A DNA stretch of 35,628 nucleotides, taken from contig NZ_MASU01000033.1 of the NCBI RefSeq assembly GCF_003202235.1, forward strand, positions 1 to 35,628. Direction: 5' to 3'. Source of the stretch: Prauserella flavalba. Lineage in GTDB: Bacteria; Actinomycetota; Actinomycetes; Mycobacteriales; Pseudonocardiaceae. Of the stretch, positions 17,906-35,628 are shown piece after piece. The first letter of the stretch is position 1, and every line of letters starts with the position of its first letter. Below the pieces are notes generated by a model. That model saw only the letters and a program-made list of their open reading frames with translations, was not told the origin of the DNA and did not search any database. Both the position numbers and the translations under genes were made by a program.

Positions 17906-18705
17906 TGGCCAGCAAGACAAGCAACGGCAACGGCCGCAATGTGGCATCCGAGATCGCCTACCTGACCCGGGCGTTGAAGGCACCCTCGCTGGCCGGGTCG
18001 GTGGAGCGGCTGGCCGACCGGGCCCGCGCCGAGACCTGGACCTATGAGGAATTCCTGGCCGCCTGCCTGCAACGCGAGGTCGCCGCCCGCGAAGCCCACG
18101 GCGGCGAAGGCCGCATCCGCTCGGCCCGATTCCCGTCGCGCACATCGCTGGAGGAGTTCGACTTCGATCACCAGCGCTCGCTCAAGCGGGACACCATCAC
18201 CCACCTCGGCACCCTGGACTTCATCACCGGCAAGGACAACGTGGTCTTCCTCGGCCCACCCGGCACCGGCAAGACCCACCTGTCCATCGGATTAGGCATC
18301 CGGGCCTGCCAGGCCGGGCACCGTGTCGCCTTCGCCACCGCCGCCGAATGGGTCGCCCGGCTGGCCGACGCCCACCACGCTGGCAAGCTGCAAGAGGAGC
18401 TCGTCAAGCTCGGCCGCATCCCGCTGCTCATCGTCGACGAGGTCGGCTACATCCCCTTCGAAGCCGAAGCCGCGAACCTGTTCTTCCAGCTGGTGTCCAG
18501 CCGCTACGAACGAGCCTCGCTGATCGTCACCAGCAACAAGCCCTTCGGCCGCTGGGGTGAAGTCTTCGGCGACGACGTCGTCGCCGCCGCGATGATCGAC
18601 CGCCTCGTCCACCACGCCGAAGTCATCTCACTGAAGGGAGACAGCTACCGACTCAAGGACCGAGACCTCGGCCGCGTCCCAGCGGCCACCAAGACCAACG
18701 ACTAG
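17905..18705 (+). CDS. istB: IS21 helper ATPase IstB
   Basis: 266-residue AAA+ protein that stimulates IstA and helps choose targets. Walker A GPPGTGKTH and Walker B PLLIVDEVGYIPF are intact; sensor region IVTSNKPFGRWGEVFGDD follows, and the end has the family motif AMIDRLVHHAEVISLKGDSYR. Start ATG 17905 overlaps the istA stop by one base. No frameshift or missing motif, so the element may still be able to move. Confidence 0.94.
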   Translation: MASKTSNGNGRNVASEIAYLTRALKAPSLAGSVERLADRARAETWTYEEFLAACLQREVAAREAHGGEGRIRSARFPSRTSLEEFDFDHQRSLKRDTITHLGTLDFITGKDNVVFLGPPGTGKTHLSIGLGIRACQAGHRVAFATAAEWVARLADAHHAGKLQEELVKLGRIPLLIVDEVGYIPFEAEAANLFFQLVSSRYERASLIVTSNKPFGRWGEVFGDDVVAAAMIDRLVHHAEVISLKGDSYRLKDRDLGRVPAATKTND

Positions 18706-18714
18706 CAACATCCC

Positions 18715-18750
18715 GGGGTGGGTCAACCTTCACCCGGAACAACCGGGTCA
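18715..18750 (-). repeat. IS21 right terminal inverted repeat
   Basis: On the plus strand it starts GGGGTGGGTCAA and ends GGGTCA. Complement of the left repeat with 7 mismatches. Confidence 0.88.
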
Positions 18751-18913
18751 GGATTCAAGCGGCGTTGACACCGTCGCCGGTGCCTGCGGCCAGAGAAGCC
18801 CCCGGCCGCCGGGGGGACATCAGACCGGGGCGAGGCGGCTCGGCGGCTATGACACCGATCACCCAGAACGGTAGTGTCTCGGAGCGGTCCGACCCGGCTC
18901 GCGCGGCTCACTT

Positions 18914-19342
18914 CTACCGATCGAGTGAGAAAGACCGGCGAGTCCAGCACAGGGTCACCGTGGTGCCCGTGTCGGTGGAGCTGATGGTGACCGCGTCGGC
19001 CAGGCCGCGCATCAGCGGCACGCCCCGGCCGCCGTGCCGGTGGCTTGGCCGGTCGCTCCACCGGCCCGCGTCGGAGATCGTGACTTCGATGGTGTGGTCG
19101 ACGGCCCGGGCGGTGACCGCCATGGTTCCCCGGACGGCGTCCCGGTAGGCGTGGGCGACTGTGTTGGCCATCGCCTCGTACGCGGCCAGCTTGACGTCCT
19201 CGACCAATCCCGAAGGCAGCCCGTGTGCGCGTGCCCAGCGGGCCAGTTGGTTGCGCAGCAGAGTGGTTTCACTGCTGACCGCCGGGACCCGGCGGTGCCA
19301 TACCGCTGGTACCTCTCGCGGCCGCTCCGTCTCACTTGCCAT
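18914..19342 (-). CDS. RsbW-like serine kinase / anti-sigma factor (HATPase_c_2)
   Basis: 142-residue GHKL-fold ATPase. N-box YEAMANTVAHA (55-65) carries the Mg-coordinating Asn; the G1 box is DAGRW (91-95) and the G2 box GGRGVPLM (104-111). Such proteins hold an alternative sigma factor inactive and phosphorylate a STAS antagonist. The STAS protein at 19635, encoded divergently, is the natural partner; no sigma-factor gene is in view. ATG 19342 is preceded by AAGGGTGG. Family is clear; the target sigma factor is unknown. Confidence 0.87.
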   Translation of the reverse strand: MASETERPREVPAVWHRRVPAVSSETTLLRNQLARWARAHGLPSGLVEDVKLAAYEAMANTVAHAYRDAVRGTMAVTARAVDHTIEVTISDAGRWSDRPSHRHGGRGVPLMRGLADAVTISSTDTGTTVTLCWTRRSFSLDR

Positions 19343-19634
19343 ACCACCCTTGCCTCACTGCTCGCATCCTCCGAGATGTAGCCCGCGGGAGTGAGCGACA
19401 AACGACTCCGCCGCGGCAGTCACAGTCCACTACGCCGTGCGCGTGCGCGCCATTTCCATCGAGCATCGGGCGGCAACAATTGGGCCTCGTCGAAGTCGCC
19501 GCGGGCGTACAGTGGGGGCACTAGCGTTGCAGGTGGCGCGCTCGCGCGGCGATGGGCGTGCTTCGACCAATGAGGGCTGCGGACGGCGAGCGTGCCCGAC
19601 GGCGCACTGGTTCCGTGGTCGGATGGGGGTCACC

Positions 19635-20036
19635 ATGACCGGCAACCAGGACAGGGACCCAGCCGCCAGGGCGGCAGCGGCCCTGCTGTCCGCGGATGTG
19701 ACACGCCGTGACTCGTGTTGCGTGGTGCCGGGGGCCGGCGAGGTTGACATGGTCGCGGTGGAGGAGGTGCGGCGCGTGGTTGGTGATGAACCGGCCGGCA
19801 GGACACAAGCGCTGATCATCGACATGCGCGCGGTCTGTTTCTGCGGCTCCGCCGGGGTGAGCTACCTCGCCGAGCTCGCCGAACGCGCCCACGCTCGCCA
19901 AGCGCATCTCGCCGTCGTCCCGTCACCGCCGCTGAACCGGGTCCTGAAGATCGTCGGCCTCGACCGGGCACTGCCCACCTACGCCACCGACGCCGTGGCG
20001 GTCGCCGACCTCGGCATCCCTGACCAGTGCCGCTGA
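19635..20036 (+). CDS. STAS-domain anti-sigma factor antagonist
   Basis: 133-residue STAS protein. The phospho-acceptor region is VCFCGSAGVSYLAEL, where S72 sits at the usual phosphoserine position after the beta strand (ALIIDMRAV). The C-terminal half HLAVVPSPPLNRVLKIVGLD is typical of RsbV/SpoIIAA-like antagonists. ATG 19635 has GGGGG about 5 nt upstream; ATG 19623 in the same frame is possible but lacks a site. Partner switching with the divergent RsbW-like kinase is inferred from adjacency. Confidence 0.82.
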   Translation: MTGNQDRDPAARAAAALLSADVTRRDSCCVVPGAGEVDMVAVEEVRRVVGDEPAGRTQALIIDMRAVCFCGSAGVSYLAELAERAHARQAHLAVVPSPPLNRVLKIVGLDRALPTYATDAVAVADLGIPDQCR

Positions 20037-20087
20037 CCTCCCGGGAAAAGCCGGTCAGGTCTGCAGCATGCGCGGCCTGAACGGCGA

Positions 20088-20127
20088 GGAGCCCCCGGCC
20101 CCGCGTTCACGCGCCGCCGGGGGCTCC
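20088..20127. terminator. 12-bp stem-loop after the STAS gene
   Basis: GGAGCCCCCGGC and GCCGGGGGCTCC with a 16-nt loop, 52 bp past the STAS stop and 21 bp past the Imm1 stop on the other strand. It could serve both converging transcripts. No T-run. Confidence 0.65.
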
Positions 20128-20147
20128 GCTCGGGCTCCTGCCAGCGT

Positions 20148-22887: not shown

Positions 22888-23097
22888 GTGAAGCTGACTC
22901 ACCTGGGGAGCACGTCGAAGAACGGTGGCTGCCCGGAGGCATACGAGACTGATCGCGGCACCTTCGTCGTTCAGGGCACGAGGGTCACCGATCCCGAGGC
23001 GCTCGCGATTCTTTGTGAGCGTGGTTTGCCCGACCACGAGACCGCGGTCGAGATCCCCAAGGAGCTGGTGGAGTTCTTCCAGGGGGCCCGTGGGTGA
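22888..23097 (+). CDS. Hypothetical protein (69 aa) upstream of DUF6879
   Basis: GTG 22888 with GGAAGGA 7 nt upstream. Sequence begins VKLTHLGSTSKNGGCPEAYE, then GTFVVQGTRVTDPEALAIL and IPKELVEFFQGARG. The pattern (short protein ending in EIPxxLV-type helix) is common just upstream of DUF6879 genes and resembles DUF397-associated small proteins in position but not in sequence. GTGA overlap with the next gene shows one operon of three. May be an antitoxin-like or regulatory partner; not known. Confidence 0.75.
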   Translation: MKLTHLGSTSKNGGCPEAYETDRGTFVVQGTRVTDPEALAILCERGLPDHETAVEIPKELVEFFQGARG

Positions 23098-23621
23098 CGG
23101 TACGTCGTCTCGGCCCCGGCGAGCTGGGCGCACTGCTCGACACAGTGCGCCGCTCGTCGTGGCGGTGGGAATGCCAGGGTCACTACGCCGTCGACGAGGA
23201 CGAGCTCGACGCGTGGCGCGCCGGCCAGCCGGTCGAGGAGACCGACGAGGACCGCGCTTGGCACGCCTACATCCGTCGCCTGCGCGCTGCGGGCATCCCG
23301 TTCGAGCGCGTGCGGATGCTCACTGACCCGCTCAGCGAGTACCTGCGGTGGATGCTCTCGGTCACCCACGCCAACGTCGAGGCGGGCGAGGGCATCCGCT
23401 GGATCGACCAGCACCAGGCGGCCCAGCTGGGGATGCCGGGCTACGACTTCTACATCCTCGATGACGACCGGGTCGCGGTGCTCTGCTTCGATGAGCAGAC
23501 CGAGCTGATCGGCATCGACCTCGACGACGACCCCGAGGTCGTGCGGCAGCACCAGGGGTGGCGTGATCTGGTGTGGCCGCTGGCGACGACCCACGCCGAC
23601 TACATCGCAGGGAACAGGTGA
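23094..23621 (+). CDS. DUF6879 family protein
   Basis: 175 residues. Start MTVRRLGPGELGALLDTVRR, core AWRAGQPVEETDEDRAWHAY, ERVRMLTDPLSEYLRWML and the acidic DFYILDDDRVAVLCFDE are characteristic of the DUF6879 family found beside Scr1-type XRE regulators in Streptomyces and Pseudonocardiaceae. GTG 23094 overlaps the upstream stop; its stop overlaps the GTG of the XRE gene. Role unknown; likely a partner of the regulator. Confidence 0.88.
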   Translation: MTVRRLGPGELGALLDTVRRSSWRWECQGHYAVDEDELDAWRAGQPVEETDEDRAWHAYIRRLRAAGIPFERVRMLTDPLSEYLRWMLSVTHANVEAGEGIRWIDQHQAAQLGMPGYDFYILDDDRVAVLCFDEQTELIGIDLDDDPEVVRQHQGWRDLVWPLATTHADYIAGNR

Positions 23622-24451
23622 GCATCGAGAAACGGCAGCTCACGTTGGCCGACACGTTGCGCGGCCTGCGCGAGCGGGCGGGGTTCCGCACCGGCAAGGA
23701 CTTCGCGGCGCACATCGGCTGGCTGCCCTCGAAGGTCAGCCGGATCGAGAACGGCCGCACCCTGCCGAGCGACGCCGACGTGGCCGCGTGGGCCGTAGCG
23801 GTCGGTGGCGGCGACCTGGCGCAGATTGAGCTGCGTGACGAGGTGCGCGAGATCCGGCTCGAACGCGGCCGCTGGAAACGACAGCTGCGGCACGGTCACG
23901 CCGATCTCCAGCGCAGCACCGCTAAGGCTGTGCACGACGCCCGCTCGATTGTGATGGTCGAGTTCTTCCTCGTGCCCGGCCTGGTTCAGACCGCCGAGTA
24001 CGCCCGCGCCGTGTTCGAGCTCGCGGCCGAGATGCACCAGACACCCCGCGACTCCGACGACGCGGTACGCGAGCGGATTCGGCGGCAGGACGTGCTCTAT
24101 GACCCGGACAAGCGCGTCGAGATCCTCGTCGCCGAGGCCGCCCTGCGCTACCCGATCTGCCCGCCGGTGGCGATGCGGGCACAGCTGGACCGGCTCGGCA
24201 ACCTCGCGGGCCTAGCGCACGTCCGGCTCGGCGTGCTGCCGCTCGACACCGTGCTGCCCACCGTCACGATGCACGGCTACACGATCCTCGACGACACGGT
24301 CACGATCGAGGTCAACCACACCGATGTCGTCGCTACCGACCCCGAGGACGTGGCGCTCTACCGCGGGATCACCGACCGGCTCTGGGAGGCAGCCGCCGAG
24401 GGTGACGACGCACGTGAACTTCTTTCGCGCGTCACCACCCCCACCCGCTAG
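23618..24451 (+). CDS. Scr1-family XRE transcriptional regulator (HTH plus DUF5753)
   Basis: 277 residues. N-terminal HTH_31/XRE domain: LADTLRGLRERAGFRTGKDF, then the recognition helix region LPSKVSRIENGRTLP. The C-terminal DUF5753 domain includes FFLVPGLVQTAEYARAVFE, ERIRRQDVLYDPDKRVEILV and LRYPICPPVAMRAQLDRL. Such proteins (for example AbaA-/Scr1-type) regulate development or antibiotic production and act with small partner proteins encoded nearby. GTG 23618 overlaps the DUF6879 stop. Intact, in contrast to many neighbours. Confidence 0.92.
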   Translation: MSIEKRQLTLADTLRGLRERAGFRTGKDFAAHIGWLPSKVSRIENGRTLPSDADVAAWAVAVGGGDLAQIELRDEVREIRLERGRWKRQLRHGHADLQRSTAKAVHDARSIVMVEFFLVPGLVQTAEYARAVFELAAEMHQTPRDSDDAVRERIRRQDVLYDPDKRVEILVAEAALRYPICPPVAMRAQLDRLGNLAGLAHVRLGVLPLDTVLPTVTMHGYTILDDTVTIEVNHTDVVATDPEDVALYRGITDRLWEAAAEGDDARELLSRVTTPTR

Positions 24452-25514: not shown

Positions 25515-26375
25515 TCAGCCTAGCTCTTGGCGCAGGGTGAACGTACGTCCGCCGTCGCGGGATGCGTAGATTCCCGTTTCGGTGGCGACGTAGACCTCGG
25601 AGCTGCCGTTCGTGGCGAGGGCTTGCGGTGCGCCGGGTACCTGGCCCGCCGTGGACCACGAGGTGCCGCCGTCCTTGCTGGTGTGCACCCTGCCATCCGG
25701 ATCGATGCCGATAAGGGTGTTCTCGGATGGCCAGTCGAGGAGTAGCAGGAGAGGAGCTTTCGGCATGGTGGCGAAGGTGCGGCCGCCGTCGGTGCTACGC
25801 GCCGGGCCCTCCTCGGTGGTTGCTAGCACGGTGTTCGCGTTGGTGGGGTGGACGGTGAAGTCGGCGAGTGCGATGCTTGCGCGCCGGTCCCAGTTCTGTC
25901 GGTCGCTGGTGACCATGAGCTGCTGGCTCTGGCTGTCGTAGCCGTACACCTGGTTGTGTTTGGCTTCGAGGGCGTGGAAGTCGGCTTGGCCGGATAGCGA
26001 GAGGGGCGCCCACGTCTGCCCCGCGTCGGTGCTTTCGATGAGGCCAAGGTGCGGCGGGAGGTCCTCGTCCGGGGCGGGGTGGCCGCTTCCGAGGAAATGC
26101 CGTGGGCCTACGACGGTGAATCCCATCGTGTCCTGCTGTCGGTCCGCGATCAATTCGGGTTCGCCCTGATCGGGAAGCCGGAACACCCCGTAGTGGCTCG
26201 CGGCGTAGAGAGTGCCGTCGGCGGGGTCGATGCCGAGTCCGTGCACGTGCCCGAGGCTGGGCGGCGCGCCGGGCACGTTGTTCGCCGTCTGCTCGGCGGT
26301 TTGACCGCACGCGGTCAGTGTGGCGGCGGCGATCACAGTCATCACGCCAAGGCGCATCCTGTTGCGCTGTGTCAC
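25515..26375 (-). CDS. F510_1955-family beta-propeller (BNR-type) lipoprotein
   Basis: 286 residues with a lipoprotein signal peptide MRLGVMTVIAAATLTAC (lipobox LTAC; mature Cys about residue 23). The mature part begins GHVHGLGIDPADGTLYAASH and contains Asp-box/BNR-like repeats (STDAGQTWAPL, STDGGRTFATM, SKDGGTSWSTA, SRDGGRTFTLR) of a secreted beta-propeller. GTG 26375 has AAGGAG 10 nt upstream. The same-strand CopZ, CDGSH and NDH-like genes suggest membership of a metal-related locus; F510_1955 proteins are named as glycosylhydrolase-like but no catalytic residues are evident to me. Confidence 0.82.
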   Translation of the reverse strand: MTQRNRMRLGVMTVIAAATLTACGQTAEQTANNVPGAPPSLGHVHGLGIDPADGTLYAASHYGVFRLPDQGEPELIADRQQDTMGFTVVGPRHFLGSGHPAPDEDLPPHLGLIESTDAGQTWAPLSLSGQADFHALEAKHNQVYGYDSQSQQLMVTSDRQNWDRRASIALADFTVHPTNANTVLATTEEGPARSTDGGRTFATMPKAPLLLLLDWPSENTLIGIDPDGRVHTSKDGGTSWSTAGQVPGAPQALATNGSSEVYVATETGIYASRDGGRTFTLRQELG

Positions 26376-26744: not shown

Positions 26745-26951
26745 TTACTGGGCGACTTCGTAGCCGGCGTCTGCGATCGCCGCCCGGACGAGCTTGCCGT
26801 CAATTGGGTTGTCGCTGATCACGGTGACTTCACCGGTGGCGATGTCGACATCGACGTCGTTGACGCCGGCTACGCCGGTGACTGCGGTGGTCACCTTGTT
26901 CATGCATCCAGAGCAGGTCATGCCTTTGACGGTGTAGGTGCTCGTGCTCAT
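26745..26951 (-). CDS. CopZ-type heavy-metal-associated (HMA) metallochaperone
   Basis: 68 residues, one HMA domain with the copper-binding motif GMTCSGC near the N terminus and the betaalphabetabetaalphabeta order visible through VNDVDVDIATGEVTVIS and LVRAAIADAGYEVAQ. ATG 26951 has AAGGGA about 6 nt upstream; the longer ORF to 27008 runs into the promoter. It carries Cu(I) to P-type ATPases or regulators in known systems; no CopA ATPase or CsoR gene is in this window. Promoter described separately. Confidence 0.92.
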   Translation of the reverse strand: MSTSTYTVKGMTCSGCMNKVTTAVTGVAGVNDVDVDIATGEVTVISDNPIDGKLVRAAIADAGYEVAQ

Positions 26952-26979
26952 TGATTTCCCTTCGACGGTGGTCAATGGC

Positions 26980-27008
26980 AACTTAACACTACGGGGGTAG
27001 GGTATCAA
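26980..27008 (-). promoter_or_regulatory. copZ promoter with C-rich operator in the spacer
   Basis: On the minus strand: -35 TTGATA (27008-27003), 17-bp spacer, -10 TAAGTT (26985-26980). The element TACCCTACCCCCGTAGTG fills the spacer and touches both hexamers. 15 of its 18 bases match the element in the nuoA-like promoter at 35246-35274. GC-tract operators in this position are typical of CsoR-type metal sensors (established for the family; binding here is inference). Confidence 0.7.
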
Positions 27009-27041: not shown

Positions 27042-28460
27042 TTAGCTGATGAGGATGTTGCCTTGGAAGACTGCGAGGATCGGGCCGGCGAGGATGCCGA
27101 CGGCGACGGAGGCCGGTGCGGCGAGGTAGGCCGTGGTCGCCGCCCGGGGTTCGGCGTGTTCGATGGTTGTGGGGTTGGAGCGCATGGCGGGCGCGATCCA
27201 TCGGAGGTAATAGAACACGCTGGCGGCGGTGTTGACGGCGGCGAGGACGACCAGCCAGACGAAACCGGCGTCGAAGGCGGCGGTGAAGACGGTGAGCTTG
27301 CCGGCGAACACGCCGGTTGGTGGCGTCCCGACGAGACCGAGCAAACAGATAGTGAGGCCTAGCGCCAGCCAGGGTTGGTGGCGCCGCAGGCCGCTGTAGT
27401 CGGTGAGCGTGCGCGCGCCGGGCAGCGCGCAGACTACCGCGAACGCGCCGAGGTTGGTCACGGCGTAGGCGGCGAGGTAGAGCAGCAGGCTGGGGAGCGC
27501 GAGTGTGCTGCGTCCGGCGGCGGCGACGGCCATCAGGAGATAGCCGATCTGGCTGATAGTGGAGTAGGCGAGCAGGCGGCGTACGTCGCTCTGGAAGAAC
27601 GCCGCGAGGTTGCCCAGAGTCATTGTGGCCGCAGCGAGGACAGCGAACAGAAGTGGCCAGTCGAGTGAGGCCAAGCCTAGTGGAGCGGCGACGAGCCGGT
27701 AGAGCGCCACGGCAGCGCCGATCTTGGGGATGGTGGTGACGATAGCACCGACCGGTGGCCGCGCGCCCTGCGTGACGTCCGGGACCCAGAACTGGGCAGG
27801 CACGGCGCCCGCCTTGAACAGCAGGCTGGCGATGACGGCGATGACGCCGACGGCTGCGGCGGCCGTCGGCGCGTCCGGTATTCCATCGGCGAGCGTGGGG
27901 TAGTCGGTTCCGCCGCTGAGGCCGGTCAGCAGCATGATGCCGAACAGCATGGTGACGCCGAGCAGTGCGCCGAGCAGGTAGAACTTCAGGCCGGCCTCGG
28001 TGCCGGGGGAGTCCTTGGCGAACGCGGCCAGCGCGTAGAGCGGAACACTGGCCAGGAGATAGGCGGCACCGAGCAAGAGAAGGTCGTTGGTACCGGCGAG
28101 GATGACGGTGCCGAGCGCGCTGAGCAGGAGCAGGACGACGAACTCGGTTTCGCGCTTGTGGCTGCGGACGTCCGCAGTCAGGCCGAGCACGAACAGCACG
28201 GACACGAGCACGACGGCCCGGGTGGCGTTGGTGGCGATGTCGACGGAATAGCTGCCTTCGAACACAGCCGTGCTCGGCTCCAGCCAGTCGAGCACAGTGG
28301 ACGCGAGCCCGGCGAGGCAGGCGAGTGCGGCGAGAACATGGATCAGCCACTGGCGTCGGCGGGGCAGGTAGGAGCCGATGAGCAGCCCGAGCACGGCGCT
28401 GGCAGCGAGGAAGATCTCGGGCAGGAGCAGGCCGAGCTCCTGGGTCATCATTCCTTCCAT
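27042..28460 (-). CDS. NuoN-like proton-channel subunit
   Basis: 472-residue polytopic protein of the complex I antiporter-like family. Conserved channel lysines are kept: SLLFKAGAVPAQFWVPDV, TIPKIGAAVALYRL and VFAGKLTVFTAAF. The usual TM5 glutamate (LELLSLPLY in ordinary NuoN) is not seen; the segment reads AYLLASVPLYALAAF. ATG 28460 follows the NuoM stop by 1 nt; ATGs at 28451 and 28448 are alternatives. Last of eight co-oriented NDH-like genes. Loss of the TM5 glutamate may alter proton coupling in this subunit. Confidence 0.88.
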   Translation of the reverse strand: MEGMMTQELGLLLPEIFLAASAVLGLLIGSYLPRRRQWLIHVLAALACLAGLASTVLDWLEPSTAVFEGSYSVDIATNATRAVVLVSVLFVLGLTADVRSHKRETEFVVLLLLSALGTVILAGTNDLLLLGAAYLLASVPLYALAAFAKDSPGTEAGLKFYLLGALLGVTMLFGIMLLTGLSGGTDYPTLADGIPDAPTAAAAVGVIAVIASLLFKAGAVPAQFWVPDVTQGARPPVGAIVTTIPKIGAAVALYRLVAAPLGLASLDWPLLFAVLAAATMTLGNLAAFFQSDVRRLLAYSTISQIGYLLMAVAAAGRSTLALPSLLLYLAAYAVTNLGAFAVVCALPGARTLTDYSGLRRHQPWLALGLTICLLGLVGTPPTGVFAGKLTVFTAAFDAGFVWLVVLAAVNTAASVFYYLRWIAPAMRSNPTTIEHAEPRAATTAYLAAPASVAVGILAGPILAVFQGNILIS

Positions 28461-28461
28461 G

Positions 28462-29949
28462 TCAGCGGCTCACCAGGTCGCCGAGGGTGCGGGCCGCGGG
28501 TTCGATGACGTCGAGTAGGAATCGCGGGAACAGGCCGAGTACGACGGCCAGCACCATCAGCGGCGCGATCGAAATGGTTTCGGGGGCGGTGAGATCGGTG
28601 GTGCCGCCTGCGGCTCGTGGCGGGCCGAGGAAGATGCGCTGGTAGGCGCGGAGGAAGAGGGCCGCGCTGATGAGAATGCCGAGGAAGGCCAAGGCAGTGG
28701 CGACGGGCGTCGCCCCGAGCGAGCCGGTGAAGATCTGGAACTCGGCGATGAAGCCGGAGAACCCAGGCAGCCCCAGGGAGGCGAAGGCTGCGATCGCGGT
28801 GAGCCCGGCGAACCGGGGTGCGCTGGCGGCGAGCCCGCCATAGGAGCCCATGTCGTAGGTGTGTCCCCGTTCGTAGAGGACACCGGCGAGCAGGAACAGC
28901 GCACCGGTGATCAGGCCGTGGCTGACCATCTGCGTGACGGCTCCGGCGACGGCGAGGTCATGGGCCTGTTCGTTCGACGTGGCGATGAGCCCGGCCGCGC
29001 CGATGGCGAGGATGATGTAGCCCATGTGGTTCACGGAGGTGTAGGCGATCATCCGCTTGAAATCGCGTTGCGCCAGCGCTACCAGCGCACCGTAGAGCAC
29101 ACTGAGCACACCCACGATCACGATCACCCAGGCGTAGCGTCGCCACGTGTCGGGCAACAGCGGCATCGCGATGCGCACGAAGCCGTAGGTGCCCAGCTTC
29201 AGCAGGACACCGGCGAGGATCGCGGACCCCGCTGCCGGGGCTTCGGTATGGGCTGGTGGCAGCCACGTGTGGAACGGCACGGTTGGCGTCTTGATCGCCA
29301 GGCCGACGACGAGCGCGAGCAGCACCAGCGTTCCGGCGACGCCCTGTCCTGCCAAGGGGTTCTGTTCAGCAAGCTGGGCGATGTCGAAGGTGTGGGGCTC
29401 GGCGGAGAGGTAGAGCCCGATGAACCCGAGCAGCAGCGCGAGCGAGCCGACGAACGTGTAGAGGAAGAACTTCAGTGCCGCCCGGGCCGCCCCCTTGTGT
29501 CCCCACCCGGCGATGACGAAGTACATACCCACGATGGACAGATCGAAGAAAACGAAGAACAGGATCAGGTCCAGGGAGACGAACAGGCCGAGGCACACCG
29601 TTTCCAGGAAGAGGAACAGCGCGGCGAACGAGCGGATGCGCTGAGTCTGGCGTAGTGAGTAGATCGCACAGGCCAAGAACAGCACGGCGGTGAGCGCCAC
29701 CAGCGGCAGGCTCAGTCCGTCCACGCCGAGGTGATATCCCGAGCTGACGCTGGGGATCCACCGGCGGTTGACCTCGTAGGCGTAGCCCGGTGCCGCGGGG
29801 TCGTAGCCGACCCACACCCCGAGCACGAGGACGAGTTCCACGGCACTGGCGGCGATCCAGGTCCAACGGACCGCGTTGTCGCCGAGCCGTGGGAGGGCCA
29901 GCAACCCGGCGGCGACGGCCACGGGCAAGAACACGATGATGCTGAGCAC
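28462..29949 (-). CDS. NuoM-like proton-channel subunit
   Basis: 495 residues. Start GTG 29949 with GAGGT 5 nt upstream gives VLSIIVFLPVAVAAGLLALP; the larger ORF is antisense noise over the NuoL gene. Channel residues: IKTPTVPFHTWLPPAHTEAP (TM7 Lys), LAGVLLKLGTYGFVRI (TM8 Lys) and LGLPGFSGFIAEF (TM12 Glu). The TM5 position that is Glu in standard NuoM is Asp here (VFFDLSIVGMYFVI). Otherwise normal in length and layout. Second of the three antiporter-like subunits of this locus. Confidence 0.93.
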   Translation of the reverse strand: MLSIIVFLPVAVAAGLLALPRLGDNAVRWTWIAASAVELVLVLGVWVGYDPAAPGYAYEVNRRWIPSVSSGYHLGVDGLSLPLVALTAVLFLACAIYSLRQTQRIRSFAALFLFLETVCLGLFVSLDLILFFVFFDLSIVGMYFVIAGWGHKGAARAALKFFLYTFVGSLALLLGFIGLYLSAEPHTFDIAQLAEQNPLAGQGVAGTLVLLALVVGLAIKTPTVPFHTWLPPAHTEAPAAGSAILAGVLLKLGTYGFVRIAMPLLPDTWRRYAWVIVIVGVLSVLYGALVALAQRDFKRMIAYTSVNHMGYIILAIGAAGLIATSNEQAHDLAVAGAVTQMVSHGLITGALFLLAGVLYERGHTYDMGSYGGLAASAPRFAGLTAIAAFASLGLPGFSGFIAEFQIFTGSLGATPVATALAFLGILISAALFLRAYQRIFLGPPRAAGGTTDLTAPETISIAPLMVLAVVLGLFPRFLLDVIEPAARTLGDLVSR

Positions 29950-29974
29950 GCCTACCTCACGTTCGATCCGGTGT

Positions 29975-31828
29975 TCATCCGAGCACCACCAGCAGGACAA
30001 CGAGCGCGGCGAGGGCCACGATGGCCTGCGCGTAATAGTGATGGAGCTGGCCGGTCTGGGGGCGCCGGGCCGACCGTCCCAAGCGGCGGAAACCGTGGGC
30101 GACCGCGCGGACGGCGCCGTCGACGGACCACTCGACGCGGGCGTCGACCGCGCGCGCCACTGAGGAGCCCACCGCGACCGCGGCGCGCACGCCGCCGTCG
30201 ATGACCCGGTCGTCGAACCGGGCCAGCGCGACGGCGGCGGCCTTGGTCGGCGCCGCGACCAGGCTGCGTGCCGCCGCCTCGAGCCCGAGCCATCCAGCCC
30301 ATGGTTCGCGTGCCGGGACGTCTCCGCGACGGCGGACGACCGCGGCAACAGCGCCCGCGGTGGCCAGGGCGACGACCGCGGAAACCAGCAGCTCCCACCA
30401 CGCCGCGGCTGCCTCGTCGGTCGTGGAGACGAAGCGGGCGAAGGATTCCCAGACGGCGGGGACGGCGAGCACACCCAGGGCGGCCGCCCCGGCGGCGAGC
30501 GGTGGCAGCGCGCTGCGCTGCCACGCATTGACCCGGCCGGTGGCGCGCTGCTCGACGTGCCCCGCCGCGCCAGGATCGGGAGCTGACCACACGATCGCCA
30601 CGGCACGACCGGCATAGGCGGCGCTGAGCGCCGCGGCGCCGAGCCCGACCAGATACAGCGGCGTGGCGTCCCGGAGTGCTACGGCGAGCACGTGGTCCTT
30701 GGTCGCCCAGATCGACAAGGGCGGGATCCCGGCCAGCGTCACGGCTCCGGCGGTGAAGGTCACGCCGACGACCGGGTACCGACGGGCGACGCCGCGAAGT
30801 GCTAGCAGGTTTTTGGTGCCCAATGCGGTCAGCCACGCCCCAGCGGCGAGGAACAGCAGGCTTTTGGTCAGCGCGTGCGCCACGAGCTGTCCGCTCCCGG
30901 CGGCGACCCCGCCCGCTCCTGCGGCGAACACCATGAATCCGACCTGGGCGCAAGTGGAGGCGGCCAGCAGTTGCTTGAGATCGCTCTGCACCACGGCCAC
31001 GGCCCCAAGCGCCAACGCGGTCAGGGCGCCGGTCCACGCCACCAGCACACTCGCCCACGGGGTGGCACCGAGTAGCGGCTCCAGGCGCAGCAACAGGTAG
31101 GCGCCGGCGGCGACCATCGTTGCCGAGTGCAAGAGGGCGGACACGGGGCTGGGGCCGTCCATGGCGCGAGACAGCCAGAAGCTGAACGGCAGCTGGGCCG
31201 ACTTGCCGAGCGCCGCCAGCACCACACCCGCGGCCACGACGTCCCGCCACCCGTCCGGCAACCCGGCCAGCTCGTCGAGGGCGAGCGCGCCCGCGCCGCC
31301 GGCGAGTGCCGCTCCCGCCGCCAGGTAGAGCCCGAGGTCGGCGGAGCGGGTGGTCAAGAACGCCACCGTGCCCGAACTGGCCCGCCGGGACTCCCGCCAC
31401 CAGAAACCGATGAGCGCGTACGAGGCCGCGCCCATCACCTCCCATGCCATCAGCAGCGTGACCAGCGTCGTGGCGGTGACCGTCACCAACATGGCTCCGG
31501 CGAAGAGCAACATGAACCCGAAGAACCGCGCCCGCGCCTCCTCCGGGCCGAATTCCCCGACGGCGAAGATCAGCACCGCAAGTAGCACGACGGAGACGAT
31601 GATGACCATGACCGCGGAAAGGCCGTCGACCCCCAGGCCGAACGACACACCTTCCACATAGGACGCCGTGACCGCCGGGCGTTGGGCGGTCACGATGGCC
31701 GACAGCGCCAGCGTCAGCGCCGCCGCGGCGATCGCGCCGGGCACGGCGAGCGAATCCGCGCGCCTGCCACACACCAGCAGCAGGCTGCCGACCGCCAGTG
31801 GAACTCCGATCAGGAACCACAGCGTCAT
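29975..31828 (-). CDS. NuoL-like proton-channel subunit
   Basis: 617 residues, with the long C-terminal extension of NuoL. TM5 glutamate retained (LLMAWEVMGAASYALIGFWW), TM7 lysine retained (ALGKSAQLPFSFWLSRAMDG) but the usual PFHxWL histidine is Ser, TM8 block SALLHSATMVAAGAYLLLRL normal, and HALTKSLLFLAAGAW retained. ATG 31828 lies 3 nt after the NuoK stop. Could also be compared with MrpA/DabB-like proteins, but the position in an A-H-J-K-L-M-N run makes NuoL the best name. Confidence 0.93.
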   Translation of the reverse strand: MTLWFLIGVPLAVGSLLLVCGRRADSLAVPGAIAAAALTLALSAIVTAQRPAVTASYVEGVSFGLGVDGLSAVMVIIVSVVLLAVLIFAVGEFGPEEARARFFGFMLLFAGAMLVTVTATTLVTLLMAWEVMGAASYALIGFWWRESRRASSGTVAFLTTRSADLGLYLAAGAALAGGAGALALDELAGLPDGWRDVVAAGVVLAALGKSAQLPFSFWLSRAMDGPSPVSALLHSATMVAAGAYLLLRLEPLLGATPWASVLVAWTGALTALALGAVAVVQSDLKQLLAASTCAQVGFMVFAAGAGGVAAGSGQLVAHALTKSLLFLAAGAWLTALGTKNLLALRGVARRYPVVGVTFTAGAVTLAGIPPLSIWATKDHVLAVALRDATPLYLVGLGAAALSAAYAGRAVAIVWSAPDPGAAGHVEQRATGRVNAWQRSALPPLAAGAAALGVLAVPAVWESFARFVSTTDEAAAAWWELLVSAVVALATAGAVAAVVRRRGDVPAREPWAGWLGLEAAARSLVAAPTKAAAVALARFDDRVIDGGVRAAVAVGSSVARAVDARVEWSVDGAVRAVAHGFRRLGRSARRPQTGQLHHYYAQAIVALAALVVLLVVLG

Positions 31829-31831
31829 GTC

Positions 31832-32137
31832 TTAGCCCTTCAGATCCGCGGCCATGTCGGTCATGTCCACGTCTCTGGCCCGGAACACCGCTGTTGTCAC
31901 GGCAAACCCGGCCGCCATCTCGATCGCCATCGCTGTGATGGCCAGGACAATGACCACCTGCCCGTCCGGGCGATCGAGCGCGGTGAAGTACCAGAACGCC
32001 GCGCCACCCACGATCACGGCGTTGATCATCAACTCAAGGCCCATCATGATCATGACGATGGACTGCTGGGAGAGCGCACCGTAGAGGCCGACGCTGAACA
32101 GTGCGGCCGCGAGTAGCAAATACTCTTGCAGACTCAC
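31832..32137 (-). CDS. NuoK-like subunit
   Basis: 101 residues, three helices. Both buried glutamates of the family are present: MGLELMINAVIVGG in TM2 and ITAMAIEMAAGFAV in TM3, so the E-channel relay through this subunit looks intact. GTG 32137 has GGAGG 9 nt upstream and overlaps the NuoJ stop (GTGA). No anomaly beyond a polar C-terminal end. Confidence 0.93.
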   Translation of the reverse strand: MSLQEYLLLAAALFSVGLYGALSQQSIVMIMMGLELMINAVIVGGAAFWYFTALDRPDGQVVIVLAITAMAIEMAAGFAVTTAVFRARDVDMTDMAADLKG

Positions 32138-32697
32138 CTGCCGACACCTCCTCGAACGGGGTCGTCGGGGCGATCGCGATCCAGCCGGTCGCCGTAGCGG
32201 TCGTAGCGGCCCCGGTGTGTGGCCAGGACGACCGTGGCGACGATCGTGGCGAACAGGGCGAGCCCAAGAACTATCATCATCAGCATCTTCGGCCCCATCA
32301 GCGCCTCACCCAGCGCCATAGTCGGATCCTCGGGCTGCGGCGCGGACGATGTGGGCCAGTCGATGAGGTAGATCCCGGTCGCCAGAACCGCGAAAGTGCC
32401 GATGGCGATCGCCAGCGAACCCTTCTGGTTGTGCACCATGGTCATCGGCATCAGCCCGGCGGGATTCATCATGTACATCAACATGAAGACAACCATGATG
32501 ACCATCTCCATGATCATCATGAGGATGACCAGGATGCCGAGATATGTCAGGTCCACGAGCAGCACGGTCCCGGCTGCGAAGAGGAACGACGCCAGGAGCG
32601 CGAACGTCGCGCGGGCCATTGAGTCGACGCGAAACACCGCGACGCCGGTGACCACCGATCCGGCCGCGCACAACCAGAACACGAACTCACGCCACAT
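32134..32697 (-). CDS. NuoJ-like subunit
   Basis: 187 residues. MWREFVFWLCAAGSVVTGVA starts the protein; the Met-rich TM3 LVILMMIMEMVIMVVFMLMY corresponds to the pi-bulge helix region of NuoJ, and a later helix is KMLMMIVLGLALFATIVATV. The unusual number of methionines (many in TM3 and TM4) may be structural or might hint at Cu(I) exposure; that is speculation. ATG 32697 has GGAGG about 6 nt upstream; the ORF could be extended but without a site. Confidence 0.88.
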   Translation of the reverse strand: MWREFVFWLCAAGSVVTGVAVFRVDSMARATFALLASFLFAAGTVLLVDLTYLGILVILMMIMEMVIMVVFMLMYMMNPAGLMPMTMVHNQKGSLAIAIGTFAVLATGIYLIDWPTSSAPQPEDPTMALGEALMGPKMLMMIVLGLALFATIVATVVLATHRGRYDRYGDRLDRDRPDDPVRGGVGR

Positions 32698-32708
32698 CGA
32701 GCACCTCC

Positions 32709-33629
32709 TCAGATGACCACAAGGGATACGAACAGCGCCTGCAACAGCGTCGCCGGAATCAGCACCATCCAGGAGATCTCTTCGAACCGTTCCATCCGGA
32801 TCGTCGGGACCCTGCGGCCCGCCCACACCAATGCGGCCAGCACAAGTGCTGTCTTGACCAGCGTCCACAGCCAGTCCGGAAGAAGGGGCCCGGCGCCGCC
32901 ACCGAGGAACAGCGGCACGGCCATCGCTGCCCCGGAGACCAGGAGGACCCATCGGCCGGCGAGGAACACGAGCCTGTCCACGCCGGACAACTCGGCCAAA
33001 ACACCCCCGGCGACGTCACCGCTCACGGCGTGGTTGAACGGTCCGGAGAACGCCATCGCCAGCACCGAGAGCAGGTAGACGGCGAAGGCGACCGGCATCC
33101 ACACGACGAACCACAGGTCTTGCTGGGCAGCGACGATATCGGCGACCCGCAGCGAACCGGCACCGAGCGCCGCGGTGGTCAGTACGAACATGTGCGGTAG
33201 TTCGTACGCCAGGCCTTGTGCGACGAACCGGTACCCGCCCACCAGACTGAACGTTGAGTTGGCGCCCCACCCCGCCAGCCACACCGCCGCCCACGCGACG
33301 ATCTCCATCGCGTTGAACCACACCACACCTGCCGAGAGATCTCCGACTGCCCAATGCCCCAGGGGAGTGACCAGCGAGGCGAGCACCGCGGCCACCAGCA
33401 GCACCATGCCCGCTGCGCGCCACAGCAGCGTGTCGGCGGCCAGCGTGCGCCGACGCTGTTGCACGAGCAGCCCGGCCGCGGAGCGCAGCGGAGCGAGAGC
33501 AGCCGACCGAGGTGCGGTCACCCCGGCGGCCCGGGCGGCGAGGGTGGCGTCGAACGCCGCTGCGCCCACGGCGAACAACCCCAAAATCACTGGCAAGAGC
33601 AGCACTCCCCAGGCTGTCGTCTCAACCAT
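32709..33629 (-). CDS. NuoH-like subunit with degenerate quinone-site loop
   Basis: 306 residues, eight or nine helices. Family features retained: YRFVAQGLAYELPHMFVLTT, FLGGGAGPLLPDWLWTLVKT and the final VPTIRMERFEEISWMVLIPA. The loop that in ordinary NuoH reads like ETNRAPFDLPEAESEL and lines the quinone cavity with acidic residues is here AFSGPFNHAVSGDVAGG (about residues 193-209), with only the PF kept. The electron-to-proton coupling site is therefore probably lost. ATG 33629 overlaps the end of the fusion gene by 8 nt. Confidence 0.87.
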   Translation of the reverse strand: MVETTAWGVLLLPVILGLFAVGAAAFDATLAARAAGVTAPRSAALAPLRSAAGLLVQQRRRTLAADTLLWRAAGMVLLVAAVLASLVTPLGHWAVGDLSAGVVWFNAMEIVAWAAVWLAGWGANSTFSLVGGYRFVAQGLAYELPHMFVLTTAALGAGSLRVADIVAAQQDLWFVVWMPVAFAVYLLSVLAMAFSGPFNHAVSGDVAGGVLAELSGVDRLVFLAGRWVLLVSGAAMAVPLFLGGGAGPLLPDWLWTLVKTALVLAALVWAGRRVPTIRMERFEEISWMVLIPATLLQALFVSLVVI

Positions 33630-34803
33630 GATGAGCCTCGCGCACGGTGAGCATGTCGGTGTCGAGGTCCAGGCTCGCGACGATCAGCCGCGCCGTGGCC
33701 AGCTCGCGGCCCTCCAGCACGCTGGGGAGGACATCGACGGCCCACGGCGTGCCGTCAGCCACATCCGGGGATGCGACTGACGTCTTGGGGTCGGCCAGCG
33801 AGTCGACCCAACGGTAGAGACGGGTCAGTGCATCTCCCGCGAGTGCCCTCGGCGTGGAGGGCTTGTCTGGCACCTGTCCCACCCCGGTCAGTAGCCACGG
33901 CAGCGTGCGGGAGCGGCGCACCTGCCTGCCCCACCTCCGGATGGGGCCCGCGATCTCGGCTTGCGGCGTCCCAGTCAGCACCTGATCCCGCAGACGTCGC
34001 GCGACAGCGGCGGCATCCGCCCAGCCAGCGATCGCGAGCAGGGCAGCGCTCGCGTCCAACCACCTGGCCTTCAGGGGGCGCCCCGGGCGCAGCCAGAATG
34101 CGTCTCCCCGGGCATCGCCTATGCCGAGCACTTCGACCGCTGCCTGCTGAATGACATCGCCTTGTAGTTTCGTGCGCACGACGAGCCCGGGCGGCCAGAG
34201 CGGCAGTAGCGGACCGAGCGGTACGTGCAGCTGGTCGAGAGTGAGCCCATCCCGATCGTCCGCCCGGCCGGCCATCGGCACGCCGCCCGCCAGCTGCATG
34301 CCATCCATGTCGTGTCCGTGATGACCGTGGTGCTCGTGGTGACCATGTTGCTGTTGGTCTTGCTCCGCGTGTCCGCTGCCGGACGGCGCACTGTGATGTG
34401 AACGATGTTCGGCATGGCTTCCGTGTTCTTGCCTGCCGGCCTCCGATTCAGGGCGATCACCGGCGGACAGGGCCTCGGTCGCCTGTTTGTGCTGGTAATC
34501 GACGTTGTGCAGGGCGCTGACCGCCACGTCGAGTTCACGCGGTGCGTCGTTCGCGGCCTGCACGTCCACCCGTGTGCGGGGTGCGGGTATGAGCCCCCAT
34601 AGCTGTTCGACAAGGGGCTCGAGCGCATGCCCGGCGACACCTGCAACGACGAGTATGTTCGCCTCTGCGGGACTGAACGCCGTACCCCACGCCCGTTCCC
34701 TCACACAGCGCTCGACGGCCAGCCGTGCCTCCGTGCCACCAGGTACGGTGACCACCAGGGGCCGGGGTGGCATCGTCCTCAGCAGCCACCTGCTCAGCTC
34801 CAC
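33622..34803 (-). CDS. NuoB/NuoD-like fusion protein with histidine-rich linker
   Basis: 393 residues. Residues about 35-80 resemble the core of NuoB (FSPAEANILVVAGVAGHALE, EQLWGLIPAPR) but the four cluster-N2 cysteines are absent; only C33 is seen. A linker at 127-164 has 14 His in 38 residues and ends HDMDGM. From about 174 it reads GVPMAGRADDRDGLTLDQLH and VPLGPLLPLWPPGLVVRTKL, NuoD-like, with NuoD-like helices to the end (LIVASLDLDTDML). GTG 34803 is chosen since it begins the matching frame and overlaps nuoA by 10 nt; no ribosome site is clear. It replaces NuoB, C and D in this locus. The His linker likely binds Cu, Ni, Co or Zn. Confidence 0.72.
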   Translation of the reverse strand: MELSRWLLRTMPPRPLVVTVPGGTEARLAVERCVRERAWGTAFSPAEANILVVAGVAGHALEPLVEQLWGLIPAPRTRVDVQAANDAPRELDVAVSALHNVDYQHKQATEALSAGDRPESEAGRQEHGSHAEHRSHHSAPSGSGHAEQDQQQHGHHEHHGHHGHDMDGMQLAGGVPMAGRADDRDGLTLDQLHVPLGPLLPLWPPGLVVRTKLQGDVIQQAAVEVLGIGDARGDAFWLRPGRPLKARWLDASAALLAIAGWADAAAVARRLRDQVLTGTPQAEIAGPIRRWGRQVRRSRTLPWLLTGVGQVPDKPSTPRALAGDALTRLYRWVDSLADPKTSVASPDVADGTPWAVDVLPSVLEGRELATARLIVASLDLDTDMLTVREAHHG

Positions 34804-35141
34804 CGCAACGCCCCTTCTCGCCAGGCATAGGTCACACCGGCGAAGAGAATTCCCAGGAAAACGAACATCTCCACCACGGCGGTCATGCCTTCCTCGGCGA
34901 CCACGAGCGTCCACGGGTACATGAACACCATTTCCATGTCGAACGCCAGGAAGATCATCGTCAGCGTGTACCAGCGAACGTGATATCGCGACACGGCATG
35001 TTCGGCGGGCGCGTGCCCGGACAGGAACGGACGTACGTCCCTGAGGGTGCTGCCCAATCGGAGGAGGAAGGCGACACCGTAAAGGCCAGCGATGATGCCG
35101 ATGATGACCACGGCCAGGAGAAACGCATTGCCGACGTTCAC
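34794..35141 (-). CDS. NuoA-like subunit with altered quinone-facing loop
   Basis: 115 residues, three helices. TM2 motif FLAFDMEMVFMYPW (64-77) keeps the conserved D and E. The TM1-TM2 loop that normally has PYECG and a cysteine facing the quinone site is RPFLSGHAPAEHAVSRYHVRW, without cysteine. GTG 35141 has GGGAGG about 11 nt upstream. First gene of the eight-gene operon; promoter described separately at 35246-35274. Confidence 0.87.
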   Translation of the reverse strand: MNVGNAFLLAVVIIGIIAGLYGVAFLLRLGSTLRDVRPFLSGHAPAEHAVSRYHVRWYTLTMIFLAFDMEMVFMYPWTLVVAEEGMTAVVEMFVFLGILFAGVTYAWREGALRWS

Positions 35142-35340: not shown

Positions 35341-35628
35341 TCAACGAGCTCGAGGCGCGCCGGCCGGTTCCTCGGCAGCGGGTTCGATGCCCGCGACCAG
35401 GTTGAAGGCGCCGGTGAGCAGGTTGAGTGCAACCAGGCCGACAACATCGGCGATCACGCGGTCGCTCCAGCCGTGGGCACGCAGGTCGGCCACATCCTCA
35501 TCGGCAATCGCGGAAGGCTCGGCCAGCACCCGGACCGCGAAAGCGGCCAGGGCTGCTTCGCGGCGATCCGTCGCTGTGCCCGCACGGGCGAGCGCGATGT
35601 CGGCCTCGCTCAAACCGGCCGCCCTAGC
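35341..35628 (-). CDS. Carboxymuconolactone-decarboxylase (AhpD-like) family protein, 5' partial
   Basis: The frame is open to the right edge of the window, so the start is outside; the visible 95 residues are the C-terminal part. AGLSEADIALARAGTATDRR and DEDVADLRAHGWSDRVIADV followed by GLVALNLLTGAFNLVAGIEP are typical of peroxidase-related CMD proteins. The CxxxH redox motif would lie upstream and cannot be checked. The gene is co-oriented with, and 200 bp upstream of, the NDH-like operon. Confidence 0.85.
   Translation of the reverse strand, partial: ARAAGLSEADIALARAGTATDRREAALAAFAVRVLAEPSAIADEDVADLRAHGWSDRVIADVVGLVALNLLTGAFNLVAGIEPAAEEPAGAPRAR

Follow-up and report, generated by a model that had tools for sequence, protein, structure and literature searches.

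We analysed a stretch of 35,628 nucleotides from Prauserella flavalba (hereafter the window), which is an entire contig (C33) of an 8.09-Mb genome, and found at positions 27042 to 35141 an eight-gene operon that belongs to the complex I superfamily by descent and has very probably taken on a new job. The operon is highly likely to work in the handling of copper (or silver), and copper probably crosses the membrane through the complex that it encodes. On balance, we lean toward a non-redox relative of complex I that would export Cu(I) driven by proton influx, that is, a proton/Cu(I) antiporter. More tentatively, Cu(I) might have replaced the electron/quinone reaction as the partner to which the three antiporter-like subunits are coupled; the E-channel would then have turned into a copper path lined by methionines, the N2/quinone module would have become a copper-loading domain, and the whole would be a multi-proton-driven copper exporter. 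The link with copper is strong; the transport of Cu(I) and its direction we infer. The first-pass annotation of this DNA had proposed a dedicated assembly whose ion-translocating arm serves a task other than NADH:quinone oxidation, and this view gains support from the gene order, a separate NuoD elsewhere in the genome, neighboring copper genes, a methionine ladder in NuoJ, and a heavy-metal-binding domain (HMBD) in the second gene product of some members.

The genes nuoA, a NuoB/NuoD-like fusion (hereafter BD), nuoH, nuoJ, nuoK, nuoL, nuoM, and nuoN were confirmed to be contiguous and all on the minus strand, and the tight spacing noted earlier also held, neighbors overlapping or leaving at most about 25 bases between them. 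The products A, H, J, K, L, M, and N matched families of the complex I membrane arm at or above the Pfam cut-off (Table 1). For comparison, loci were chosen by two BD motifs, and the best 80 of at least 254 loci were kept, the latter number being a lower bound biased to that BD type because the selection used these motifs. By record titles, all 80 kept loci were from Actinomycetota; they were examined with flanks of up to 10 kb at E 1e-5, and only the best query per open reading frame was considered. One alignment (A2) contained 63 of the 80 loci plus the window, with references chosen by us and with L097 omitted for a stop codon in its range. A further 18 loci came from 28 genomes of the phylum, and 18 plasmid regions were picked from tblastn matches, near-duplicates being skipped.

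Methionine is prominent among the conserved positions of NuoJ. Among 98 NuoJ sequences, it occupied 12 of the 25 columns conserved at 95% or more, versus 5 of 102 in 30 canonical NuoJ sequences from the window's family and order, although these ratios are not strictly like for like because the canonical set is less diverse (102 versus 25 conserved columns). Methionine made up 9.9% of all NuoJ residues, compared with 3.1% in the canonical protein. When 16 plasmid copies were included (n = 114), M27, M60, M61, E64, M65, M68, M72, M76, M85, M87, and H89 were all retained at 100%, and M74, M77, and M138 at 97% to 99%; this ladder was kept even though ten spread-out members were only 31% to 56% identical to the NuoJ of the window. 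Positions 60, 64, 68, 72, and 76 follow a four-residue spacing, and on a helix that turns by 100 degrees per residue, M60, M61, E64, M65, M68, M72, and M76 (seven of nine positions in transmembrane helix (TM) 3) fell on one 160-degree face, with M74 and M77 off it. In an alignment to solved NuoJ, M61 stood opposite a tyrosine of the Escherichia coli protein, which we take to be Tyr59 in TM3 at the E-channel; the names of E-channel and antiporter residues and the NuoJ/NuoK topology used here are general background. NuoK (n = 97) had methionine in 5 of 20 conserved columns, versus 5 of 75 in canonical NuoK (n = 29), J and K being the two subunits for which canonical controls were made. Its conserved methionines are M29, M31, M32, M70, and M74, and both E35 and E73 (or D) were kept in 103/103 sequences. 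NuoA showed methionine in 3 of 19 conserved columns and retained E70 and D68 (or E) in 105/105; its Met71, Met74, Met92, and His54 are conserved. No such excess was found in NuoL (1/73), NuoM (3/113), NuoN (1/52), or NuoH (0/30). In sequence, the E-channel-region subunits J, K, and A have conserved methionines next to the retained carboxylates.

The surroundings of the operon point to copper as well. The commonest clusters in the flanks of the 80 loci included heavy-metal P-type ATPases, heavy-metal-associated (HMA) proteins, CsoR-type repressors, and DUF305 proteins, and the DKTG motif of a heavy-metal P-type ATPase was present in the flanks of 27 loci. At L086, L112, L119, L088, L099, and L071, the ATPase (with copZ and csoR where these were seen) lay directly upstream on the same strand. 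Three of four neighboring ATPases tested passed a copper-type NCBIfam cut-off, a neighboring DUF305 protein passed the CopM model, and the regulator at L095 matched RicR with 159 bits, slightly below the cut-off of 175. Overall, with queries and thresholds fixed, a core copper gene was found at 44 of the 80 loci but in only 2 of 40 random regions of 20 kb (Fisher p 2e-8), a linkage above chance. The control regions were drawn from 15 genomes belonging to the family and order of the window, whereas the 80 loci span many more genera; the CopA, CsoR, CopZ, and CopM queries came from the test loci and so favor them, and the greater length of the control regions compared with the test flanks (about 11.5 kb) creates a bias in the opposite direction. 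Eleven of the 18 further loci also had a core copper gene. Furthermore, a CsoR family member was located within 10 kb of the operon in 13 of 30 genomes versus about 0.33 expected, the 13 being counted manually and including seven from one family (f32), two of these from one genus, and the expectation using an assumed mean genome of 4.7 Mb. The genes csoR, copZ, copA (ATPase), cueR, and DUF305/copM are members of copper detoxification sets, and because the partners are detoxification genes, export would be the likeliest direction. Two other neighbors were recorded. A ferredoxin-reductase-like FAD/NAD(P) flavoprotein (for example, L120 4676-5902, minus strand) flanked 11 of the 80 loci and could be a partner or a copper-stress gene; a BlaI/MecI/CopY-type regulator (14 of the 80) occurred with a cluster of M56/M48-type peptidases nearby (for example, L080 5859-6866 and L055 19467-19907).

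The operon also occurs on plasmids and outside the Actinomycetota. By tblastn of plasmid records, BD was found in 16 and NuoJ in 17 and 30, Alpha- and Gammaproteobacteria included, and the proteobacterial plasmids were annotated with the same eight-gene order, the second gene being called a "hypothetical" or "heavy metal-binding domain-containing" protein. Copper or heavy-metal genes were present in 13 of the 18 plasmid regions, a count that rests on annotation; copper was named in 11 (L170, L171, L172, L175, L177, L179, L181, L182, L184, L186, and L187), and L173 and L180 had heavy-metal ATPase, HMA, or metal-regulator genes only. The Roseivivax and Acuticoccus copies had cueR, a P-type ATPase, and copper oxidases nearby; a Halomonas plasmid carried a copper-resistance multicopper oxidase and copper resistance protein B, a Sulfitobacter plasmid CusA/CzcA, a copper oxidase, and a cupredoxin, and a Nitratireductor plasmid CopD and a multicopper oxidase; copies from Rubrobacter, Curtobacterium, and Pseudonocardia were accompanied by a metal-sensitive regulator, an HMA protein, and a P-type ATPase. 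These neighborhoods bear on the direction of transport. The complex could instead import or supply copper, loading multicopper oxidases and cytochrome oxidase by using the proton-motive force or the entry of copper, and multicopper oxidase query matches at 11 of the 80 loci, as well as the multicopper oxidase, DsbA, and cytochrome c genes flanking the Roseivivax copy, would fit this. Nevertheless, csoR, copZ, copA, cueR, and DUF305/CopM are partners in detoxification, and copies reside on plasmids carrying detoxification genes, so that we regard copper import as decidedly unlikely.

In a NuoM tree of 45 rows, in which long branches were flagged and the L132 row is an artefact (a wrong extract from a cut contig), proteobacterial copies fell in two separate clades with actinobacterial ones (supports 99/99 and 100/99). 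Because the proteobacterial sequences fall in two such mixed clades, the tree suggests at least two transfers between the phyla, in either direction. Several plasmid copies were unusual. The Halomonas sp. KO116 plasmid (L170) has the ergothioneine biosynthesis genes egtB and egtD directly 3' of nuoN (17861-20133), and in Rhodococcus oxybenzonivorans pRB29 (L176, 13717-15381) only nuoA and BD were annotated, with no H-J-K-L-M-N in the gene table. The operon region of a Vreelandella sulfidaeris plasmid (L178, 8157-14949) is annotated as numerous short hypothetical proteins, and its NuoJ match is split in three; either the sequence or the gene itself may contain frameshifts. In Pseudarthrobacter defluvii plasmid pA (L185, 6554-8374), BD was annotated as short and followed by an IS3 transposase inside the operon.

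The gene order argues for a dedicated assembly. BD was found in 10 of 60 genomes, the window's own included, with the copy in G030 (L040) being a fragment with a stop; another candidate (L039, G055) was dropped, as its sequence is that of an acyl-CoA synthetase-like protein. Among 396 genomes drawn from the phylum, 28 had BD, again with the window's own included. As anticipated from the window, BD sits with A-H-J-K-L-M-N: the order A-BD-H-J-K-L-M-N on one strand was seen at 75 of the 80 loci, and the five incomplete ones are cut by contig ends (L098, L099, L116, and L121) or by a scaffold gap (L065). The 18 further loci follow this order too, with L132 and L138 truncated where their contigs stop. 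The expectation that BD never occurs with NuoEFGI was largely upheld, in that no canonical NuoB, C, D, E, F, or I was a best match at any of the 80 loci; a NuoG-type match, however, did occur at L078 and L109. Among the 18 further loci, L137 (1873-3534) showed a weak NuoI-type match of 19 bits about 5 kb upstream of nuoA. In the window itself, NuoC, I, E, F, and G are indeed absent from the operon, whose upstream side lies less than 500 bases from the contig end. In the data searched, we found neither NuoC, I, E, F, or G of the operon's own adjacent to it nor signs that BD is a broken form of separate nuoB and nuoD genes.

The same genome holds a separate nuo cluster on contig C2, as the first-pass annotation had suggested checking, with a full-length NuoD match of 384 bits to PF00346; the labels B, C, E, F, G, and I on that contig follow from the order of open reading frames, not from single tests. 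Subunits A, H, K, L, M, and N from the window share only 29% to 36% identity with their counterparts there. A second NuoD-family gene (PF00346 above 160 bits outside BD) was present in 29 of 30 BD genomes, and none was found in G373, which is 87% complete. That the operon is a functionless, decaying duplicate of complex I might be argued from its missing subunits and from a window BD that is barely recognizable as NuoB/NuoD. This is contradicted by the same order and near-invariant residues across two phyla, and we consider it scarcely credible. The operon is not a broken complex I: the full set of eight genes stands in order at 75 of the 80 loci, and the 18 further loci agree, two of them being truncated. 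At one additional locus, L035 (G026:C3, 8187-10224, minus strand), a second BD-like gene, with a NuoD-like half lacking the DRDG motif, lies beside a NuoH-like gene; no A, J, K, L, M, or N match was found in the 20 kb examined, and it is possibly a partial or diverged copy.

The origin of BD was read from divergent relatives. The window BD had no Pfam family match and matched NuoB only weakly (NCBIfam E 0.024; PDB E 0.23). Among eight divergent members scanned, PF00346 (49 kDa/NuoD) scored above the cut-off in the C-terminal half of seven, and PF01058 (NuoB) gave weak matches, below the cut-off, in four; PF00346 was found at the BD locus in 11 of 30 genomes. Against the PDB, the C-terminal half of divergent BD aligned with solved NuoD chains in two stretches, and the N-terminal part was weakly NuoB-type. 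The claim that NuoB and NuoD are compressed into one 393-residue protein was therefore borne out through the PF00346 and PF01058 matches of these relatives. The NuoD-like part of the window BD comprises about 220 amino acids, and no full-length NuoD with a quinone-site motif was found in it. A GPxxP motif was present in 54 of 98 BD by one pattern, and 8 of those 54 had a histidine inside the matched stretch. Likewise, the loss of the cluster cysteines proved general: the tandem N2 CC pair was present in none of 98 BD, and the window BD has a single cysteine.

The antiporter-like subunits, by comparison, preserve much of the proton path. In NuoL, E130, K209, H234, and K377 were invariant (104/104); in NuoM, K220 and K251 were kept in 101/101 and E403 in 99/101; and in NuoN, K216 was kept in 97/101, K246 in 99/101, and K388 in 99/100. 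The quinone loop of NuoH has changed, from ETNRAPFDLPEAE to MAFSGPFNHAVS in the window; the same loop reads ETNRAPFDLPEAESEL in the canonical complex I of the same genome and MAFSGPFNHAVS-GDV in the window. By sequence, the proton machinery is largely present and the redox machinery is not. Of the two roles offered in the first-pass annotation, metal-dependent transport fits our tests, and the other, a different electron donor, is weakened by the loss of the N2 cysteines and the rewritten NuoH loop. A redox enzyme with another donor would have copper on BD in place of cluster N2, or electrons supplied by a separate reductase, to drive the pump. In its favor, copper-binding segments lie in the very subunit that holds N2 and the quinone site in complex I, the ferredoxin-reductase-like cluster near 11 of the 80 loci could be such a reductase (best NCBIfam match HcaD, 243 bits, cut-off 450), and cytochrome c genes are found near some plasmid copies. 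However, the missing CC pair and the altered loop speak against it, and the reductase was not seen at 69 of the 80 loci within the stretch examined; we therefore judge such an enzyme quite improbable.

Recognizable metal-binding elements include the ligand array of the NuoJ ladder and, in one clade, HMBD. The Pfam domain HMBD was detected in the BD of four of the eight divergent members scanned, where it sits in the linker between the NuoB-like and NuoD-like parts, in a clade that includes Rubrobacter plasmids. Its motif occurred in BD at 6 of the 18 phylum loci and two to four times in 6 of 14 plasmid BD (Sulfitobacter, Paracoccus, Nitratireductor, Thioclava, and two Rubrobacter), and the linker segment that bears it matched copper-ATPase chains in the PDB. 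A histidine-rich BD (at least 6 His in 30 residues) was found at 48 of the 80 loci. The histidine-rich linker, which had been put forward as the hallmark of the fusion, is accordingly frequent and not constant, and as a defining feature it was rejected, 21 of the 80 BD having three or fewer His in any 30 residues; the proposed search keyed on histidine richness would miss members without the linker. Elsewhere the histidines lie on other subunits. A His-rich C-terminal tail of NuoK accompanies a His-poor BD at L054, L063, L068, L073, L075, and L117, which by record title are five Nocardiopsis and one Glycomyces (the window is not among them), and a His-rich NuoJ tail accompanies a His-poor BD at L171 (Roseivivax). 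Such NuoJ tails were also found at L170 (Halomonas), L172 (Arthrobacter FB24), L124, L115, and L118, the last two having a His-rich BD in addition, and at L071 the BD linker is Met/Asp-rich in place of His-rich. A soluble metal-binding run is therefore common without being universal, and the subunit that carries it can differ. By the topology of these subunits, the BD linker and the J and K tails presumably face the cytosol.

Taken together, these data suggest the following mechanism for a proton/Cu(I) antiporter. BD and the histidine-rich tails would collect cytosolic Cu(I), with or without CopZ, and Cu(I) would then cross what was once the E-channel region by way of the methionine ladder in NuoJ TM3. 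The movement of Cu(I) would be coupled to that of protons via NuoL, M, and N, such that the proton-motive force pushes Cu(I) outward and proton entry drives export. The coupling partner would thus be the metal ion where complex I has the quinone reaction.

Several observations weigh against this mechanism, in addition to the lower diversity of the canonical NuoJ set mentioned above. In the proton path, the TM5 acid of NuoM is Asp in 90 of 100 sequences, the TM5 Glu of NuoN is replaced by Leu in 93 of 101, and NuoH E143 was kept in only 85 of 102. No methionine column of NuoH was conserved across the wider set; Met147 and Met178 are conserved in 78 actinobacterial sequences and not beyond them. 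Within the stretch examined, no core copper gene was found at 36 of the 80 loci or at 7 of the 18 further loci, and five plasmid regions (L174, L176, L178, L183, and L185) had no annotated copper or heavy-metal gene. The fourth neighboring ATPase (L072) fitted a cadmium-type model better than the copper-type model. The HMBD motif occurred in none of 79 BD of the main actinobacterial set, and HMBD is for this reason a marker of one clade only; at 25 of the 32 loci whose BD has fewer than 6 His in 30 residues, no His-rich run was found on any other subunit. The substrate may be silver or another soft metal, and the direction, most likely export, is read from the neighboring genes. Finally, methionine-lined helices could bind copper for sensing or gating without carrying it. 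In a copper-gated proton/cation antiporter, copper on the methionine ladder and BD would open the proton path and guard pH or membrane potential, and copper itself would not be transported. The methionine, HMBD, and neighbor evidence fits such a device as well, the antiporter subunits retain most key residues, and three plasmid copies have genes for potassium channels or uptake nearby; nevertheless, the methionines span a whole membrane helix and the next loop, not a single site, and we consider gating rather unlikely. Apart from this weighing, the TM5 substitutions of NuoM and NuoN, with the TM7, TM8, and TM12 residues retained, represent a natural change in the proton chain.

Table 1. Operon genes, notable segments, and adjacent genes in the Prauserella flavalba window
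Feature	Position	Strand	Evidence or remark
nuoA-like subunit, 115 amino acids (aa)	34794..35141	-	PF00507 E 1.1e-25
BD: NuoB-like part, His/Met linker, NuoD-like part; 393 aa, one Cys	33622..34803	-	origin from divergent members
His/Met-rich linker within BD (HGSH...HGHDMDGM)	34297..34428	-	variable among members
nuoH-like subunit	32709..33629	-	PF00146 E 7.2e-42
nuoJ-like subunit, 187 aa	~32134..32697	-	PF00499 E 1.1e-10; profile match to solved NuoJ chains, e.g., 3rko_J
NuoJ methionine ladder, TM3 and next loop	32431..32520	-	M60 M61 E64 M65 M68 M72 M74 M76 M77 M85 M87 H89
nuoK-like subunit	31832..32137	-	PF00420
nuoL-like antiporter subunit	29975..31828	-	PF00361, PF00662
nuoM-like antiporter subunit	~28462..29949	-	TIGR01972 504 bits, above cut-off; start codon chosen by us
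nuoN-like antiporter subunit	27042..28460	-	PF00361; TIGR01770 309 bits, cut-off 332.6
CopZ-like HMA protein, directly 3' of nuoN, same strand	26745..27008	-	PF00403 E 2.9e-14; CopZ query E 2.2e-17
F510_1955-like BNR-repeat protein	25515..26375	-	query E 2.3e-49

Of the adjacent genes in the window, the F510_1955-like BNR-repeat protein is a recurrent neighbor of the operon, found at 12 of the 80 loci versus none of the 40 control regions. Upstream of nuoA (35341-35628, minus strand), the contig stops within a gene for a carboxymuconolactone decarboxylase/peroxidase-related protein (TIGR01926, below cut-off), of which the end is present. Farther away, an IS21-like transposase (16661-17905, plus strand; Mu-transpos_C_2, with rve slightly below cut-off) is consistent with a mobile neighborhood, and a DUF6879 protein is followed by an HTH_31/DUF5753 regulator (23094-24451, plus strand).

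Compared with respiratory complex I (NDH-1, nuoA-N), the operon has all seven of the membrane-arm subunits (A, H, J, K, L, M, and N) in unchanged order, and it keeps the proton-path residues in L, A, and K and most of those in M. It differs in having no NuoC, E, F, G, or I, in its fused and shortened NuoB and NuoD without the tandem N2 cysteines, and in its rewritten NuoH quinone loop, NuoJ methionine ladder, and copper-gene neighborhood. How complex I couples its quinone/E-channel end to distant proton movement is a long-standing question, and if the antiporter reading is true, a natural relative would let coupling be studied without electrons, as a Cu(I)/Ag(I) load against protons. The operon would also be a new kind of copper-resistance machine, driven by protons and present on actinobacterial and proteobacterial plasmids, and we know of no earlier metal transporter built on complex I. 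Such a reading would correct the "NADH-quinone oxidoreductase" annotation and the marine-adaptation reading in many genomes.

Mrp antiporters and the DAB/Mps inorganic-carbon transporters likewise make non-redox use of NuoL/M/N-type subunits and a proton gradient. Neither has the A-H-J-K set or the NuoB/D relic, and we know of no methionine ladder in either; the operon has the full A-H-J-K-L-M-N and is not an MrpA-G set without NuoA/H/J/K. The CusCBA RND exporter and the CopA P1B ATPase resemble it in Cu(I) export (here only proposed), methionine ligands, HMBD/HMA domains, and shared neighborhoods, whereas their protein families are unrelated to those of the operon. The 11-subunit complex-I-like enzymes without NuoEFG keep the redox subunits NuoB, C, D, and I; in the operon, unlike in these enzymes, the four are absent or stripped. 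The 11-subunit enzymes (PMC11238625; the F420H2 dehydrogenase is discussed in PMC12361115) likewise have a membrane arm and no NADH module, Cus is described as a proton-driven antiporter (PMC7558416), and the sections consulted of the complex I subunit census PMC12361115 do not describe the operon.

The closest published counterpart is the "partial NDH-1 operon," which is very probably the same operon. It was reported from Salinispora and read as a seawater proton/sodium pump (Penn and Jensen 2012, PMC3314556), and was read in the same way in Kocuria flava S43 (PMC6002675) and in sponge Streptomyces (PMC6676996), where the stated order is nuoA, hypothetical protein, nuoH, J, K, L, M, N; osmotic stress is what the authors of the published work have in mind, and PMC8622039 and PMC4018334 were grouped with these reports on marine-adaptation genes. 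The gene order is the same, compared by the stated order and not by sequence, whereas the published accounts, so far as their available parts go, have a salt-pump reading with no copper link, no methionine ladder, and a hypothetical second gene; the word "copper" occurs 0 times in the text of PMC3314556. In the literature searched, whose coverage leaves subscription journals mostly outside, no paper was recognized that links the operon to copper, the methionine ladder, or the origin of BD. A proton or sodium pump for salt adaptation accords with the association with marine isolates in the parts seen of PMC3314556, PMC6002675, and PMC6676996, and several of our plasmid copies also come from marine isolates. 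It leaves the methionine ladder, the HMBD domains, and the copper neighbors unexplained, and we hold it to be very improbable. Relative to these salt-adaptation accounts, as far as they and the literature searched extend, the copper signature of the operon is new.

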